From Nitrospirales bacterium LBB_01 (lineage in GTDB: Bacteria; Nitrospirota; Thermodesulfovibrionia; Thermodesulfovibrionales; Magnetobacteriaceae), in contig CP049016.1 in the NCBI GenBank assembly GCA_004376055.2, positions 930,001-994,000 of the forward strand: a stretch of DNA of 64,000 nt, read 5' to 3'. The notes beneath the pieces were generated by a model that was not told where the DNA came from, ran no database searches, and was given only the letters and a program-made list of their open reading frames with translations. A program made the translations under genes and the position numbers. Below are positions 16,200 to 22,290 of the stretch, one piece after another (position 1 is the stretch's first letter; each line of letters begins with the position of its first letter).

Positions 16200-16431
16200 A
16201 TGCTTAATGAGTTAACTCTGGCAGAGGGTTTTCTGTCAGCAAATGATATATTTAAAGGACTGGATTCCCGCTCGTAGGCGGGAATGACAAAAGGAGTAGG
16301 CGGGAATGACACAGGAGAGTACTCTTCTTTTTTCTGTTATTCCTTTACAGGGGAATCCCCTTTAGGGGAGTGTCATTCCTGCGTAGGCAGGAATCCAGTT
16401 TTTTGTTTGCGGAGCTAACTGCATAGGCAAT
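16200..16431 (+). repeat. MITE-like repeat element, copy 2
   Basis: A ~232-bp copy occupying most of the 371-bp gap between the divergent GGDEF-EAL and IscR-like genes; the rest of that gap is AT-rich sequence plus the IscR operator. The left end (ATGCTTAATGAGTTAACTCT) and right end (GGAGCTAACTGCATAGGCAAT) match those of copies 1 and 3. Between the outer hairpin arms it carries an extra hairpin (GGGGAATCCCCTTTAGGGG, 16349-16367) and a duplicated TAGGCGGGAATGACA. Its right end stops 10 bp before the IscR operator. Confidence 0.8.
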
Positions 16432-16441
16432 AAAAAAAATA

Positions 16442-16472
16442 ATACTTGACAAAATTAGTAAGGTATTATAAA
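16442..16472 (+). promoter_or_regulatory. IscR-type operator overlapping the promoter of the iron-sulfur operon
   Basis: Positions 16442-16466 read ATACTTGAC-AAAATTA-GTAAGGTAT, a 25-bp imperfect palindrome with ATAC/GTAT ends, the layout of the type 1 IscR site (ATAnnTGACTn...AGTCAnnTAT). It contains the -35 TTGACA (16446-16451); a -10 TATAAA lies at 16467-16472 (15-bp spacer). The regulator gene starts 11 nt later. The expected logic is feedback: the clustered regulator represses its own operon when Fe-S supply is sufficient. Confidence 0.65.
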
Positions 16473-16483
16473 ATTAAATTACT

Positions 16484-17020
16484 ATGTTGAGATTATCGAC
16501 AAAATGCCAGTACGGCGTAAGAGCTATGTATGAGATAGCGCGTGGGTATCCTGAAAACCCGCTGACCATACGGGTGATTTCAGAGCGTCAGGACGTGTCC
16601 GTGCCGTTTTTAGAGCAGATACTTGGAAGGCTGCGTAAGGTTGGACTGATAAAGAGCGTAAAGGGCCCTGGCGGCGGTTATTTATTAACAAAAGGCCCTG
16701 AGGATATTACTATAGCGGAGATATTAACCACGTTAGAGGGCCCGTTTGCAATTACACTGTGTGCATCGGCGCACTCTGAAGACCCAGCAAGCTCTAAAGG
16801 CTGTATGAAAGCCGACCACTGCGTGATACAACACTTGTGGAGAGCGCTGGGAAGGCAAATAGAAGAGTTTTTACAAACCATAACGCTCATGGATTTAGTC
16901 AAGGGTAAGCAGTTTGAGGACTTAATTTTTTCCTGTGATGCAAGTGCTGTAGGTGCGGCGTGTCCACGTGAAGTGCTACGTGCGGGCAGCAGCAAAACCG
17001 TTGGGAGCGCACTGGCATGA
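16484..17020 (+). CDS. Rrf2-family regulator, IscR-like
   Basis: A 178-residue Rrf2-family winged-helix repressor. The N-terminal DNA-binding region is standard (LRLSTKCQYGVRAMYEIA ... ISERQDVSVPFLEQILGRLRKVGLIKSVKGPGGGYLL). The cluster-binding loop carries C93, C107 and C113 with H117 close by, so a [2Fe-2S] cluster as in IscR is likely, although the first Cys spacing (13 residues between) is longer than in E. coli IscR. The C-terminal ~35 residues add two more Cys. It heads a four-gene operon for sulfur mobilisation and cluster assembly and overlaps the next gene as ATGA. An IscR-type palindrome sits in its promoter, consistent with autoregulation. Confidence 0.9.
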   Translation: MLRLSTKCQYGVRAMYEIARGYPENPLTIRVISERQDVSVPFLEQILGRLRKVGLIKSVKGPGGGYLLTKGPEDITIAEILTTLEGPFAITLCASAHSEDPASSKGCMKADHCVIQHLWRALGRQIEEFLQTITLMDLVKGKQFEDLIFSCDASAVGAACPREVLRAGSSKTVGSALA

Positions 17021-17307
17021 GTCTAAAATTTGTTGAAAACGTTAAAGCAGATGTAACAAGCGACATCGTATATATGATGTGTCCGATGCACTTGTTGAAG
17101 CTGGACGAGCAAATTAAGGAGTTGGAAGATAAGCAGGTGTTGGAACTTTTAACCGACTATGACGGAGCGCTTGAGGATGTGCCGGCATGGTGTGAAAAGA
17201 CCGGAAATGAGTTTTTGGGTATAGATGAGGAGGCGGATTATTATAAGATTTACATCAGAAAAGCCGACGGCAACTCTGCGTCAGCGCTAAAAGAGGTGAA
17301 AAAATGA
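17017..17307 (+). CDS. TusA/SirA-like sulfurtransferase
   Basis: A 96-residue protein with the TusA-like fold signature: a Cys-Pro start of the first helix (MMCPMHLLKLDEQIKEL, C22-P23), then VLELLTDYDGALEDVPAWCEKTGNEFLG and a final strand DYYKIYIRK. TusA-like proteins carry persulfide sulfur from a cysteine desulfurase on the CP cysteine to acceptors. The usual CPxP is CPMH here. The gene overlaps both neighbours by ATGA (regulator upstream, NifS-like downstream), so all are translationally coupled, and its position directly before the NifS-like gene supports a role in sulfur relay. Which acceptor it serves is not visible. Confidence 0.85.
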   Translation: MSLKFVENVKADVTSDIVYMMCPMHLLKLDEQIKELEDKQVLELLTDYDGALEDVPAWCEKTGNEFLGIDEEADYYKIYIRKADGNSASALKEVKK

Positions 17308-18500
17308 ACAAGAGACTATATTTTGACCATGTGGCTACAAATCCACTCTTACCAGAGGTGTTTGAGGTAATGGAGCCGTACTTTAAGGAGGAGTTTGGAA
17401 ATCCTCTTAGTATGTACGATTTGGGTTTTAATGCTAAGCAGGGGATAGACAAAGCAAGGGAACAGGTAGGGGCATTAATAAACGCTAAAGCATCGGAGAT
17501 AATCTTTACGTCATCGGGAGCTGAGGCAAATAACTTTGCAGTTAAAGGATTGGCTACATCAAGACAAAACGATGGCAATCACATAATAATATCAAAAGCC
17601 GAACACCATTCGGTGCTTAACACTGCCAGGTCTTTGGAAAAGCAGGGATTTGTGGTGACGTACCTGCCTTTAGATAAACACGGGCTTGTTGATCCGCAGG
17701 CCGTAAAGTCGGCAATCAACAAAGACACAGTGCTAATATCGGTCATACATGCTAACTCCGAGGTGGGGACTATTGAACCAATACAGGAAATCGCAGAAAT
17801 TGCCCGTGAGCGTAAGATAACTTTTCACACCGATGCTGTGGCAACTGTGGGCAACATGGAGGTGGATGTAAAGGCGTTGGGGGTGGATGCAATGAGTATG
17901 GCGGCGCATCAGTTTTATGGCCCAAAGGGCGCTGGGGCGCTTTATTTAAGGGGTGGACAGAGGATTTTACCTCTTATCTATGGAGGCATTCAGGAAAACG
18001 GAAGACGTGCCGGTACGGAGAATGTGCCTGCAATCGTTGGAATGGGAAAAGCTGCGGAGCTTGCTAAGGAAAAACTGCCTGAGAGGATGGCACACGTTAA
18101 AAAATTACGGGACAGGTGCATTGAGGGACTTTCTAAGGTTGAAAAGGTGCACTTAACGGGACATCCAACTCAGAGGCTTCCCGGGCTTGCCAGTTTCGTA
18201 GTAGAGTTTATTGAAGGCGAGGGAATGCTGCTTATGCTCCTATCTAAATCAATATACGCAGCAAGCGGCTCGGCATGTACATCAAAGGCTCTAAAAGCCT
18301 CTCCCACGCTTGCCTCAATGGGAGTCCCCACAAGCCTTACACACGGCTCAATTGTGTTTTCCTTTGGCATAGATAACACTATAGAGGATGTGGAGAGTTT
18401 AATTACGGAGTTTCCTGTCATTATAGGAAAGTTAAGGGCGATGTCTCCTTTTGCTAAGGAGGGTTGGCGCCCTGAGGATATGAAAACAGAGGAAAATTGA
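17304..18500 (+). CDS. NifS/IscS-like protein lacking the PLP-binding lysine
   Basis: A 398-residue class V aminotransferase-fold protein of the cysteine desulfurase family: YFDHVATNPLLPEV, TSSGAEANNFAVKG, AEHHSVLNT, HANSEVGTIEPIQEI, FHTDAVATVGNM and the catalytic-loop Cys325 in GSACTSKALKAS are all in place. However, the Schiff-base motif reads MAAHQFYGPKG where active enzymes have HK: residue 203 is Gln (codon CAG at 17910-17912). Without that Lys normal PLP-dependent desulfuration is not expected. The operon context (IscR-like, TusA-like, IscU-like) argues that it is still part of cluster biogenesis, perhaps accepting or presenting sulfide or persulfide. A. fulgidus IscS has been reported to lack this Lys too, as I recall. 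Confidence 0.9.
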   Translation: MNKRLYFDHVATNPLLPEVFEVMEPYFKEEFGNPLSMYDLGFNAKQGIDKAREQVGALINAKASEIIFTSSGAEANNFAVKGLATSRQNDGNHIIISKAEHHSVLNTARSLEKQGFVVTYLPLDKHGLVDPQAVKSAINKDTVLISVIHANSEVGTIEPIQEIAEIARERKITFHTDAVATVGNMEVDVKALGVDAMSMAAHQFYGPKGAGALYLRGGQRILPLIYGGIQENGRRAGTENVPAIVGMGKAAELAKEKLPERMAHVKKLRDRCIEGLSKVEKVHLTGHPTQRLPGLASFVVEFIEGEGMLLMLLSKSIYAASGSACTSKALKASPTLASMGVPTSLTHGSIVFSFGIDNTIEDVESLITEFPVIIGKLRAMSPFAKEGWRPEDMKTEEN

Positions 18501-18535
18501 GATAACATTTAGAAAAAATGTAAGGGAGGTTTAAC

Positions 18536-18904
18536 ATGTATAGCCAAAAATTGATGGATCACTTTACAAATCCAAGAAACGTGGGGGAGATAGCTGACGC
18601 CGATGGGGTAGGGATGGAGGGCAATCCAACTTGTGGCGATGCTATGAAACTTTTTATAAAAGTAGAAAATGAAAAAATAGTTGATATAAAATTTCAGACA
18701 TTTGGCTGTGGAGCGGCTATCGCAGTGTCCAGTATGATAACCGAAATGGCAAAAGGCAAAACGCTTGAAGAAGCGCTCCTGATAACAAAACAGGATGTGG
18801 CGGATGCCTTAGATGGGCTGCCGCCCCAGAAAATGCACTGCTCAAACCTCGGCGCCGACGCCCTTAGAAAAGCCATAGAGGACTACCGCCAGCGAGGTAA
18901 TTAG
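18536..18904 (+). CDS. Iron-sulfur cluster scaffold, IscU/NifU N-terminal type
   Basis: A 122-residue scaffold protein. The three cluster-ligand cysteines are C33 (NPTCGD, with D35 two residues later), C58 (FGCGAAIAVSSM) and C102 (MHCSNLG), in canonical spacing; the LPPxK chaperone-binding loop of IscU appears as LPPQK. It assembles a [2Fe-2S] cluster from sulfide delivered by its desulfurase partner. The GGGAGG ribosome site 6 nt before the ATG is strong, and a 35-nt gap separates it from the NifS-like gene. The transcript ends at an obvious hairpin terminator just downstream, making this the last gene of the operon. Confidence 0.95.
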   Translation: MYSQKLMDHFTNPRNVGEIADADGVGMEGNPTCGDAMKLFIKVENEKIVDIKFQTFGCGAAIAVSSMITEMAKGKTLEEALLITKQDVADALDGLPPQKMHCSNLGADALRKAIEDYRQRGN

Positions 18905-18912
18905 ATTATCAA

Positions 18913-18958
18913 AATAATAAAGGGAGGGCAAAGCCCTTTCCCTTATTATTTTTGTTTT
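18913..18958 (+). terminator. Rho-independent terminator of the IscR operon
   Basis: A long stem (AATAATAAAGGGAGGGC, 18913-18929, against GCCCTTTCCCTTATTATT, 18933-18950) with an AAA loop is followed by TTTTGTTTT. It lies 9 nt after the IscU-like stop and is the clearest terminator in the window; the A-rich upstream arm means it could also work in the opposite direction. Confidence 0.88.
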
Positions 18959-18985: not shown

Positions 18986-19179
18986 ATGCTTATTGAGTTA
19001 ATTCCGGTAGAGGGGTTTCATGGTTCTAAAAAGGTAGGTTTCTATGTTTTTTAAAGTGGAAAAAAGGACTGGATTCCCGCTCGTAGGCGGGAATGACAAG
19101 AGGGGGCTTTCTTTTTTTGTCATTCCTGCGAAGGCAGGAATCCAGTTTTTTTGTTAACGGAGTTAACTGCATAGTCAAT
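18986..19179 (+). repeat. MITE-like repeat element, copy 3
   Basis: A ~194-bp copy in the 336-bp gap between the IscU-like gene and the stress-protein gene. Terminal inverted repeats: AATGCTTATTGAGTTAATTCC at the left against the complement of GGAGTTAACTGCATAGTCAAT at the right (17 of 22 positions agree allowing the next base). The hairpin arms are at 19072-19098 (GGATTCCCGCTCGTAGGCGG...) and 19119-19145. The internal left segment (19015-19065) differs from copies 1 and 2, so it is an older or recombined copy. Confidence 0.8.
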
Positions 19180-19240: not shown

Positions 19241-20344
19241 ATGCAGATTAAAATTAGTAAAGTGTTGCTGTGCCATGACAATGGCGATGTCTCTGATATG
19301 GCGGCGGGTGTTGCGTTAAGTATAGCAAGGGCATTTAATCTGCCGGTGCTTGGACTTCATGGTTACAATGCGGTTATGCACGAGGGCGCTTTCAGAATTA
19401 TGGAGCCGACTTTGCCCGCAGAGTACCAGACTGAGGAAATCCTTGCTAAGCAGCGGGAGGTTCACGCAAGCCTTATTCGTGTCGGTATGGAAAAAATATC
19501 TCTTTCGTATCTAAAGCCGCTTGAGCCGATATTTAGTGACGCTCAAGTCCCATTTAGCCCCAAAGTGCGCGAAGGGAAAAATTTTAAAGCCCTCCTTGAG
19601 CTGATTAATGAGGAGGATTTTGGCAGTCTTGTCATTATCGGAGACTCAGGGTTCAACCACAGTGAGTATGGTTTTGTGGGCAGTGTCTGTACGAGGGTGC
19701 TTAGGCAGTGTGATAATAAAAATATCCTAATCGTAAAAAACGATAAGATATTAGAGGGTGCTGAGTTTGTAGTCGGTTTAGACGGCAGCGCATCGGCTGT
19801 TTATTCACTTAGAGTTGCCGCAGCGTTGGCTAAGAAATTTAATGCAAAGCTCCATCTCCTATACGTCTTTGACTCAGCCCTCCATAACGATCTCTTTGGG
19901 CGCTTAAAAGACACACTAATTAACGACGACGGGTTTAAATTTAATACAAAAGATCAAGAGAAAATTCACGATGAATTTATAGATAAAGGTCTTGCACGGG
20001 TTGGACACATGATTCTAAATAAGGCGGAAAAGGATGTGTTTGGCGGCAACGGCGCAACCCATGAAGCTAAACCCGCTCACGGAGCAATGCACGGTTTTGG
20101 ACTTGTCGGAGACGGCGGGCAAAACGGTAACGGACTTAAGAAATCGGTGCTCTCCGGTCATATATATAAAAAGATATGCGATTATGCCAAAGATGTGGGC
20201 GCTGCGTTGGTCTTTACAGGGCGAACCGGACGCCATCACGCTGAGGGAATTGACATCGGCTCGGTTTGTGAAAATGTGGTGCGCTACAGCCCGTGTAACG
20301 TTATGGTTACAAGGGCTGAGGATTTCAAGGGTTGGGAACTTTAG
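19241..20344 (+). CDS. Tandem universal stress protein (UspA-like, two domains) with His-rich insert
   Basis: About 367 residues forming two UspA-like domains. Domain 1 (KVLLCHDNGDVSDMAAGVALSIARAF ... SLVIIGDSG ... VLRQCDNKNILIVK) and domain 2 (FVVGLDGSASAVYSLRVAAALAKKF ... LVFTGRTGRHHAEGIDIGSVCENVVRYSPCNVMVTR). The second domain keeps a G-rich nucleotide-binding-type segment. Between beta/alpha units of domain 2 lies an unusual Gly/His-rich insertion (THEAKPAHGAMHGFGLVGDGG). I chose ATG 19241 because the Usp fold begins there; an in-frame GTG at 19190 would add 17 residues upstream of the promoter-like -10. The gene overlaps the radical SAM gene by 13 nt, so the two are surely coexpressed. 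Usp proteins are stress-linked nucleotide binders; its specific role here is unknown. Confidence 0.82.
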   Translation: MQIKISKVLLCHDNGDVSDMAAGVALSIARAFNLPVLGLHGYNAVMHEGAFRIMEPTLPAEYQTEEILAKQREVHASLIRVGMEKISLSYLKPLEPIFSDAQVPFSPKVREGKNFKALLELINEEDFGSLVIIGDSGFNHSEYGFVGSVCTRVLRQCDNKNILIVKNDKILEGAEFVVGLDGSASAVYSLRVAAALAKKFNAKLHLLYVFDSALHNDLFGRLKDTLINDDGFKFNTKDQEKIHDEFIDKGLARVGHMILNKAEKDVFGGNGATHEAKPAHGAMHGFGLVGDGGQNGNGLKKSVLSGHIYKKICDYAKDVGAALVFTGRTGRHHAEGIDIGSVCENVVRYSPCNVMVTRAEDFKGWEL

Positions 20345-21555
20345 ATTATAAGCCGTACATTGTCTCATGGAATTTAACGCATGGCTGTAATCTCTCCTGT
20401 CCGCACTGCTATATGGACGCAGGTTGCCGCAGTGACGGAGAATTGACAACGGCACAGGCGAAAGGTGTTGTAAATTCGCTTGCTCAAATGAATCCCGCCA
20501 TGATGATAGTGCTAACTGGTGGAGAGCCTCTCCTTCGGGATGATATCATAGACATCGTGGGATACTGCTCGGATGCAGGGTTTATAACAGTACTTGGCAC
20601 AAACGGCACTCTGCTTAAGAGAGATAAATTGGCACAGCTGAAGAGTGCTGGTTTACAGGGTATCGGAGTCAGTATTGATTCCATAAAGCCGGAAAGTCAT
20701 AATGCGTTTCGCAATTTTAAGGGAGCGTGGGAACTTTCCATAGACTGTTTAAAAGCCGCAAAGGAGCTTTCTATCGAGACTCAACTTGATGTCACCCTTA
20801 CCGATGATAATTACACAGAGATTGGAGATTTCGTTGAGCTTGCGGTAAGTTTAGGTGCAAGAGCGCTAAATTTCTTTTTCCTTGTCTGCACGGGGCGAGC
20901 CATGAGGACATTTATTTCGGTTCAAAACTATGACGCTGCCATACAGGAGCTTGTTAAGCGATCTAAGACCGAGACCCGAACGATGGTCAGAGCGCGGTGT
21001 GCGCCTCACATTTATCGGGTGCTTCATGAGGATGGCGTAAGACTGCCTGAGGGCACACGCGGCTGTCTTGCAGGACGCTCTTACATGCGCATAGACCCTG
21101 TGGGAAATGTGACCCCATGTCCATATATGGAGGACAGTGTTGGAAACGTTAAGGATACAAGCATAGAGCAACTGTGGGCGGAGTCTCAGAAATTGCAAAC
21201 TATGCGGGACGGCGAGTATGGTGGCAGATGCGGCATATGTGAGTTTACAGAGATATGCGGCGGCTGCAGGGCAAGAGCATTAGCTGAGAAAGGTGACTTT
21301 ATGGCTGAGGATCCTCTGTGTCTTTATGAACCGCAGGGCAAAGGGAAACTCACGCTTACAGATGAGTCCCAATCTGATATAGAATGGGAAAGTGCCGCTA
21401 AACAGAGAATGAATAAGGTACCGGCTTTCATTAGAAAAATGGTTATAGGAGTCATAGAAAAAAAAGCAATTGAAAAGGGTGTTAGCAAAATTACTGAGGC
21501 TTTTGTAGAGGAGATAAAATCACGTGATTTTTCCAAAATGCACCGACCGGGATAA
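20332..21555 (+). CDS. Radical SAM/SPASM protein with C-terminal PCP_red domain
   Basis: A 407-residue radical SAM enzyme. The [4Fe-4S]-AdoMet motif is C19-x3-C23-x2-C26 (HGCNLSCPHCYMDAG), followed by TGGEPLLRDD and GTNGTLL. A SPASM-type auxiliary-cluster region follows (RGCLAGRS ... GNVTPCPYMED ... CGICEFTEICGGCRARAL ... DPLC). The last ~50 residues (WESAAKQRMNKVPAFIRKMV ... EKGVSKITEAFVEEI) match the PCP_red domain found at the end of the dark protochlorophyllide reductase B subunit. The segment NFFFLVCTGRA is shared with radical SAM enzymes of heme/tetrapyrrole and peptide-modification groups, so the substrate class is open. Start is TTG 20332, inside the upstream gene, with GAGG 9 nt before. 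Coupled to the stress protein upstream and 3 nt from the next gene. Confidence 0.85.
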   Translation: MGTLDYKPYIVSWNLTHGCNLSCPHCYMDAGCRSDGELTTAQAKGVVNSLAQMNPAMMIVLTGGEPLLRDDIIDIVGYCSDAGFITVLGTNGTLLKRDKLAQLKSAGLQGIGVSIDSIKPESHNAFRNFKGAWELSIDCLKAAKELSIETQLDVTLTDDNYTEIGDFVELAVSLGARALNFFFLVCTGRAMRTFISVQNYDAAIQELVKRSKTETRTMVRARCAPHIYRVLHEDGVRLPEGTRGCLAGRSYMRIDPVGNVTPCPYMEDSVGNVKDTSIEQLWAESQKLQTMRDGEYGGRCGICEFTEICGGCRARALAEKGDFMAEDPLCLYEPQGKGKLTLTDESQSDIEWESAAKQRMNKVPAFIRKMVIGVIEKKAIEKGVSKITEAFVEEIKSRDFSKMHRPG

Positions 21556-21558
21556 TTT

Positions 21559-22290
21559 ATGAAAGAACCGCTTAGTACAGGTAAATTGCCAGAGCGTAGT
21601 CTTAATTGGCTTGCCTCATCACGACTTAAATTTATAAATGAAATGAGGGATGGAAAATCGCTCAGATATTTTTCAGCCCACCTGCCTGTTATGATTACAT
21701 GGGTTGAGGGTGGAGAGTCAGAACCTTACACAAAATATCCGGTTAATATGACAGTAAAGGGAATCGGATTAATTCCTAAAACTGGGCAGCTTGAGCATTT
21801 TACTAATCTCTTTGAATCAGCCGCAGCAAATACCAAGTCAAGACCGCACATAGAAACCATCAGGGAGCGTGTTGAAGCAGTTGAAGCACTTTATAACGAC
21901 CCCTCTAATTTTGACCCTGCTTTACTTGGCGGATTAGAAATATTCAGCGGCAAAGCACTTCAAAATGTTAAAAATAACGGCCACACAAGTCTCCTGTATG
22001 TAGGGATGGAGGAGTCACCGGCACAACCCATGCAGCACCCGCACAATATGGCTCAACACCCACATGGCATGGGAGGGCATGGCGGCGGCATTTCGTATAT
22101 CAGTTTTCAGGTTAACGGCTCTATTGAAATACTTGAAAAAGACAATGTTTACTATAGATACCTGCTTGCCTCACGGAAACTGTTTGAGTTTGATAAGTTT
22201 CACATCTTTCAGCCGGATTATCCGTTTGGATACCTGATAAAGGTAGAAGAGGTGCATGACAAATCGCCGTGGTCAAGAGCTGCTAAGTAA
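21559..22290 (+). CDS. Unknown protein with a His/Met-rich segment
   Basis: A 243-residue soluble protein I do not recognise. Residues ~1-145 and ~180-243 look like ordinary globular sequence; between them lies a His/Met/Gly-rich segment (QPMQHPHNMAQHPHGMGGHG), a composition typical of copper, nickel or heme-binding stretches. There is no signal peptide or membrane helix. It begins 3 nt after the radical SAM gene and has no good ribosome site, suggesting coupled translation. Together with the His-rich insert in the stress protein it suggests that this cassette handles a metal or metallo-cofactor; that is inference. It could equally be the substrate of the radical SAM enzyme. Confidence 0.65.
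   Translation: MKEPLSTGKLPERSLNWLASSRLKFINEMRDGKSLRYFSAHLPVMITWVEGGESEPYTKYPVNMTVKGIGLIPKTGQLEHFTNLFESAAANTKSRPHIETIRERVEAVEALYNDPSNFDPALLGGLEIFSGKALQNVKNNGHTSLLYVGMEESPAQPMQHPHNMAQHPHGMGGHGGGISYISFQVNGSIEILEKDNVYYRYLLASRKLFEFDKFHIFQPDYPFGYLIKVEEVHDKSPWSRAAK

Follow-up and report, generated by a model that had tools for sequence, protein, structure and literature searches.

The nifS-like gene of the window (the whole stretch of 64,000 nucleotides from Nitrospirales bacterium LBB_01 analysed here) encodes a protein that has lost the lysine to which PLP is normally bound. In the clade to which the protein belongs this lysine and further pocket residues are gone, the cysteines of a possible sulfur relay and the operon rrf2-tusA-nifS-iscU are conserved, and the IscU encoded next to it is the only recognised scaffold of the genome. 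We propose, with a probability of roughly 0.45, that this NifS has given up desulfuration and that its Cys325 passes sulfur to IscU, the sulfur arriving via the co-encoded TusA. The confidence differs between the parts of the proposal: loss of classical cysteine desulfuration is very probable, continued service of Cys325 to IscU, by carrying a persulfide or by ligating the cluster, ranks below it, and delivery of the sulfur by TusA rather than as free sulfide is the step of which we are least confident.

The operon, together with its promoter-like and terminator-like sites, lies at 16446-18944 of the window, with all its features on the forward strand. A sigma-70-like promoter (TTGACA-17-TAAAAT, 16446..16474, matching 11 of 12 consensus positions) is located directly 5′ of rrf2 and an intrinsic-terminator-like hairpin (18920..18944) 3′ of iscU, both being consensus matches only. 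The Rrf2/IscR-like regulator (16484..17020; PF02082, E 8e-38) carries conserved cysteines at positions 93, 107 and 113, and the three are kept in 97/97 Nitrospirota and in 13/13 other Rrf2 proteins near such genes. Four-base overlaps join rrf2 to tusA and tusA to nifS. The TusA-like sulfur carrier (17017..17307; PF01206, E 8e-20) contains Cys22, within a CPMH motif, and Cys59; across the linked TusA proteins Cys22 is present in 128/128 and Cys59 in 124/128, the motif reading CPMH in 99 and CPMP in 24. The third gene (17304..18500) encodes the 398-residue protein of the NifS/IscS group, with a class-V aminotransferase fold. It is followed by the gene for IscU (18536..18904; 122 residues), a NifU_N protein that scores 206.5 bits against a TIGR03419 cut-off of 187.9 and whose three cysteines are conserved across the linked IscU proteins. 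The gene order is kept in 88 loci, and 7 further loci lack one of the four matches. The neighbours are thus those assigned by the earlier sequence-only reading, except that its label IscR is approximate: the regulator belongs to the Rrf2 proteins and has the three conserved cysteines, but it reaches 122.9 bits, below the TIGR02010 (IscR) cut-off of 207.55.

Related inverted repeats (AAAGGACTGGATTCCCGC ... GCAGGAATCCAGTTTTTT) flank the operon at 16254-16404 and 19062-19152, possibly as a MITE-like or terminator-bearing element; the window contains 4 copies of their core motif, where 0.08 would be expected. Further downstream, positions 20332-21555 encode a radical SAM/SPASM protein whose best NCBIfam match, below cut-off, is NirJ2 and whose C-terminal domain is PCP_red (protochlorophyllide reductase 57 kD). 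The gene directly 3′ of it (21559-22290) encodes a 243-residue protein that matches no Pfam or NCBIfam family.

Translation of nifS reads MAAHQFYGPKG around codon 203 (CAG, 17910..17912), and in alignments to solved desulfurases Gln203 stands opposite the lysine of HKMYGPKG in 9wep and opposite Asp199 of Archaeoglobus fulgidus IscS (4eb5). This confirms the substitution first noticed in the sequence, and also the parallel drawn there with the A. fulgidus protein, which is free of the lysine. The mobile-loop Cys325 (SGSACTSK, codon at 18276..18278) is present. A survey of homologues had been suggested. Counting the gene of the window itself, 95 Nitrospirota homologues exceed 62% identity, and among them the position is Gln in 94 (83 CAG, 11 CAA) and Met in one, so that the Schiff-base lysine of active NifS/IscS (HKxYGPKG) is absent from all of them, and Cys325 is invariant; the NifS of the nearest named relative found (L039) is 92% identical. 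CAG differs from AAG by a single base, and a sequencing error or a decaying pseudogene had to be considered. Independent genomes carrying both glutamine codons exclude the read error. The dN/dS of nifS is 0.033-0.049 against the closest relatives and 0.057 between two relatives, denoting strong purifying selection, which together with the conserved, intact operon rules out decay, as had been argued from the operon of the window; the probability of error or pseudogene is negligible. The protein scores below both equivalog cut-offs, with 474.9 against 530.75 bits for TIGR03402 and 386.4 against 643.2 bits for TIGR02006. Its sequence lacks the feature that defines an active cysteine desulfurase, so that annotation as such should await an assay.

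The suggestion that a substitute lysine might occupy the PLP pocket did not hold, as no candidate was found among the fully conserved lysines of the close homologues. K113 and K208 are fully conserved but also present in Lys-bearing homologues, and K331 sits in the Cys loop, not in the pocket. The rest of the pocket was compared in 141 distinct homologues, including 113 Lys-less TusA-linked and 18 Lys-bearing ones without TusA. The 18 Lys-bearing proteins all have Gln180 and Asn151/152, and 17 of them Thr73. The 113 Lys-less proteins have mostly Ala180 (109), Ala73 (91), Ser151 (82) and Ser152 (77), and every one keeps His101, Asp177, Thr238 and Cys325, the last being found also in 18/18 of the Lys-bearing TusA-free proteins and in 4/4 of a third group. 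The window NifS follows this pattern: the DAVQ glutamine, the phosphate-cup threonine and the NNE asparagine are replaced by Ala180 (codon at 17841..17843), Ala73 and Ser152, and His101, Asp177 and Thr238 are retained. We take the E. coli IscS equivalents to be Gln183, Thr76 and Asn155 for the residues lost, and His104, Asp180, Thr243 and Cys328 for those kept.

Since several pocket residues have changed together, Lys-based chemistry is very unlikely; PLP is normally held by His101, Asp177 and Thr238, and as these are retained, the Lys-less NifS may still bind the cofactor without a Schiff base. The same three residues would also serve a protein that is still a PLP-dependent desulfurase, in which another base, for example K331 or a lysine of a partner, acts on an external aldimine formed directly from free PLP. 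K331, kept as a weak candidate for this role, is shared by 95/95 close homologues and by most TusA-linked proteins, and is absent from most Lys-bearing TusA-free ones. We consider such a desulfurase improbable, given that Gln180, Thr73 and Asn151/152 are lost as well, that the lysine site drifts (Q, L, M, P, S, G, E, R or T across the wider clade), unlike an active catalytic position, and that 9wep carries the K331 equivalent together with the normal lysine. The entries 9wep, 9wer, 9wew, 9wf8, 9wfb, 9wfe and 9wfy, a cysteine desulfurase variant series, are the closest solved sequences; 9wfy has Leu at the lysine position, and the series looks like engineered pocket variants.

The AlphaFold model of the protein (mean pLDDT 88.9) adopts the class-V (IscS) fold, with TM scores of 0.90-0.91 to A. 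fulgidus IscS (4hvk/4eb5) and of 0.91 to E. coli IscS. For residues 324-329, which form the Cys loop, pLDDT falls below 50, as fits a mobile loop. The likeness to the archaeal protein, 42-44% in sequence identity, leads to the main alternative, that NifS contributes no more than Cys325 as a ligand and a surface for docking, free sulfide being the sulfur source and TusA belonging to another pathway or having a regulatory role. According to PMC7585200, A. fulgidus IscS, with Asp for Lys, is inactive as a desulfurase and provides its cysteine as a ligand to the [2Fe-2S] cluster on IscU. In E. coli without IscS, H2S can supply IscU with sulfur (PMC13015791), and dsrAB is present in the genome of the window and in most relatives. 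As dsrA matches (E 0.001) occur in 37/40 relatives, the gene does not discriminate. The pairing is moreover broken by G019, listed as 100% complete, in which a Lys-less NifS is found with no dsrA match, and by G026 and G027, which have dsrA and no Lys-less NifS, so that sulfate reduction was rejected as the explanation. The archaeal mode also leaves the persistent tusA and dsrE2 neighbours unexplained. We regard it as a real possibility, at clearly less than even odds.

The genome of the window consists of one contig and is 99.87% complete. Its only match to NifU_N, the domain of NifU/IscU-type scaffolds, is the operon IscU, and no match to the SufB/D core was found in it. Among 25 genomes tested, four are without a Lys-less NifS, and each of these gives a strong SufB/D match (E 1e-39 to 1e-42). 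Of the 21 that have the protein, only G022 gives a strong match and four give weak ones. In 11 genomes that gave no SufB/D match, there is a single IscU, encoded directly next to the Lys-less NifS. A second NifS of the genome (L159) has Lys and Gln180 and scores 575.2 against the TIGR03402 cut-off of 530.75, and a Lys-bearing NifS is kept in 10/10 genomes checked (this one and nine more). These proteins could deliver the sulfur to IscU themselves, the Lys-less copy being a regulatory or holding partner that stabilises IscU or throttles delivery. The second NifS is however not linked to IscU; it adjoins two half-length Sulf_transp proteins (PF04143, YeeE/TsuA-like; L159 6468-9157), and a pure holding role would need no invariant Cys325, which leaves this explanation at best faintly probable. 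A DsrE-like gene lies some 5 kb from the second nifS, and L164, the genome's third class-V protein, resembles by inspection an ordinary aminotransferase rather than a desulfurase. Taking into account the sole recognised scaffold, the lack of SufB/D matches and the lysine kept in the other NifS, the pair of Lys-less NifS and IscU should be working Fe-S machinery.

The lysine is also absent from homologues in Actinomycetota, Chloroflexota, Smithella, Elusimicrobia/Endomicrobiales and other Nitrospirota families, in a non-systematic sample of phyla, and these Lys-less proteins are mostly paired with IscU. Their loci run nifS-iscU-tusA, in many cases with an interposed gene, that of DsrE2 (PF13686), whose Cys121 is invariant (12/12). 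The 18 Lys-bearing homologues with a normal pocket have no TusA nearby. The link of TusA or DsrE2 to the Lys-less proteins suggests that a carrier delivers sulfur to NifS, rather than sulfur being made there. There are exceptions on both sides: four TusA-linked members keep the lysine (L119, L120, L122 and L130), Gln180 being already lost in them, and four Lys-less members have no TusA within about 9 kb (L135, L139, L140 and L153). L135 (G060:C32:34450-35592) belongs to a second Lys-less NifS-IscU pair, with Asn at the lysine site and an altered Cys loop (SSASTCT), in the genome that also encodes the TusA-linked Lys-bearing L130.

In the tree, one large group of 59 rows (SH-aLRT 97) unites the TusA-linked with the Lys-less proteins; it grows to 61 rows with A. 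fulgidus IscS and L135 (SH-aLRT 91). The archaeal protein is located at the edge of this larger clade on a long branch (1.02). L119, L120, L122, L130 and 9wep fall inside the TusA-linked/Lys-less group, and loss or regain of the lysine requires at least 3-4 changes. An independent-pairs test of TusA against lysine loss counted 4-5 changes in all, with no independent replication, too few to inform. Hence the TusA link is a conserved trait of the clade, with rearranged gene order, and not a replicated correlation.

In E. coli, sulfur flows from IscS to TusA, so that a route from TusA to NifS would be a reversal. Taking into account that: (i) TusA Cys22 is conserved; (ii) TusA or DsrE2 neighbours the Lys-less genes across phyla; (iii) the IscS of E. 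coli has separate docking sites for TusA and for IscU, which compete (PMC11302665), and (iv) DsrE and TusA proteins transfer sulfur groups among themselves (PMC4175335), we infer that TusA is the donor and not the acceptor, and that a persulfide is involved. In the relay that we propose, NifS would act as the partner of IscU without PLP chemistry. TusA would supply sulfur to Cys325, and the resulting persulfide would be handed to IscU; Cys325 may also, for a time, ligate the [2Fe-2S] cluster as it forms. TusA would be charged elsewhere, by the separate Lys-bearing NifS, by DsrE-type carriers or from the dissimilatory pathway, with sulfide or sulfane sulfur. It counts against the relay that the flow in E. 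coli runs the other way, that the tree gives no independent replication of TusA linkage with lysine loss, that TusA-free Lys-less and Lys-keeping TusA-linked members exist, and that the protein may still bind PLP. The cells probably load the sulfur of their Fe-S clusters by a different route, perhaps through TusA.

Textbook Fe-S assembly starts with a PLP desulfurase for which cysteine is the source of sulfur. In the near-complete genome studied here, the only recognised scaffold has a partner in which the usual desulfurase chemistry is very unlikely, and the same extends across the order and to several other phyla. The sequence-only reading was right about the loss of the lysine and understated it: the loss is clade-wide and cross-phylum, more pocket residues have changed, and the genome's only recognised scaffold is concerned. 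If the relay through TusA and DsrE2 operates, it would constitute a distinct route of sulfur entry into Fe-S clusters, and the series formed by Lys-bearing to Lys-less relatives makes its origin testable. More tentatively, there might be a widespread bacterial ISC branch without cysteine desulfuration at the IscU partner, in which TusA, fed by DsrE-type carriers or a separate desulfurase, charges a PLP-silent NifS with persulfide, and which in some bacteria would be the only recognised scaffold system.

Several known systems share parts of this arrangement. The NifS/IscS desulfurases (TIGR03402, TIGR02006) have the same fold, Cys loop and IscU partner, and differ in the lysine and in the equivalents of Gln180 and Asn151/152, all replaced in the window NifS, which scores under both family cut-offs. 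The TusA-DsrE systems of sulfur oxidisers, such as dsrE3A-dsrE2B-tusA of Metallosphaera cuprina, employ the same carrier families with conserved cysteines (PMC4175335), but serve dissimilatory sulfur oxidation, whereas in the Lys-less operons the carriers neighbour an Fe-S scaffold. Closest is A. fulgidus IscS (4eb5, 4eb7, 4hvk; D199K variant 4r5f), with which the window NifS shares the class-V fold, the replaced lysine, the retained Cys loop and the pairing with an adjacent iscU; it is archaeal and has Asp where the window protein has Gln. Methanosarcina acetivorans IscS1, likewise archaeal, resembles the window NifS by published description, being reported to lack the catalytic lysine and proposed to be like A. 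fulgidus IscS (PMC7585200). In the literature searched, no paper joining a Lys-less NifS with TusA or DsrE2 was found, which is not proof of novelty. The principle of a Lys-less IscS working with IscU is already known from A. fulgidus, and the case described here is therefore a bacterial variant of it; what looks new is its clade-wide and cross-phylum breadth in bacteria, the linkage to TusA and DsrE2 and the status of its partner as sole scaffold.
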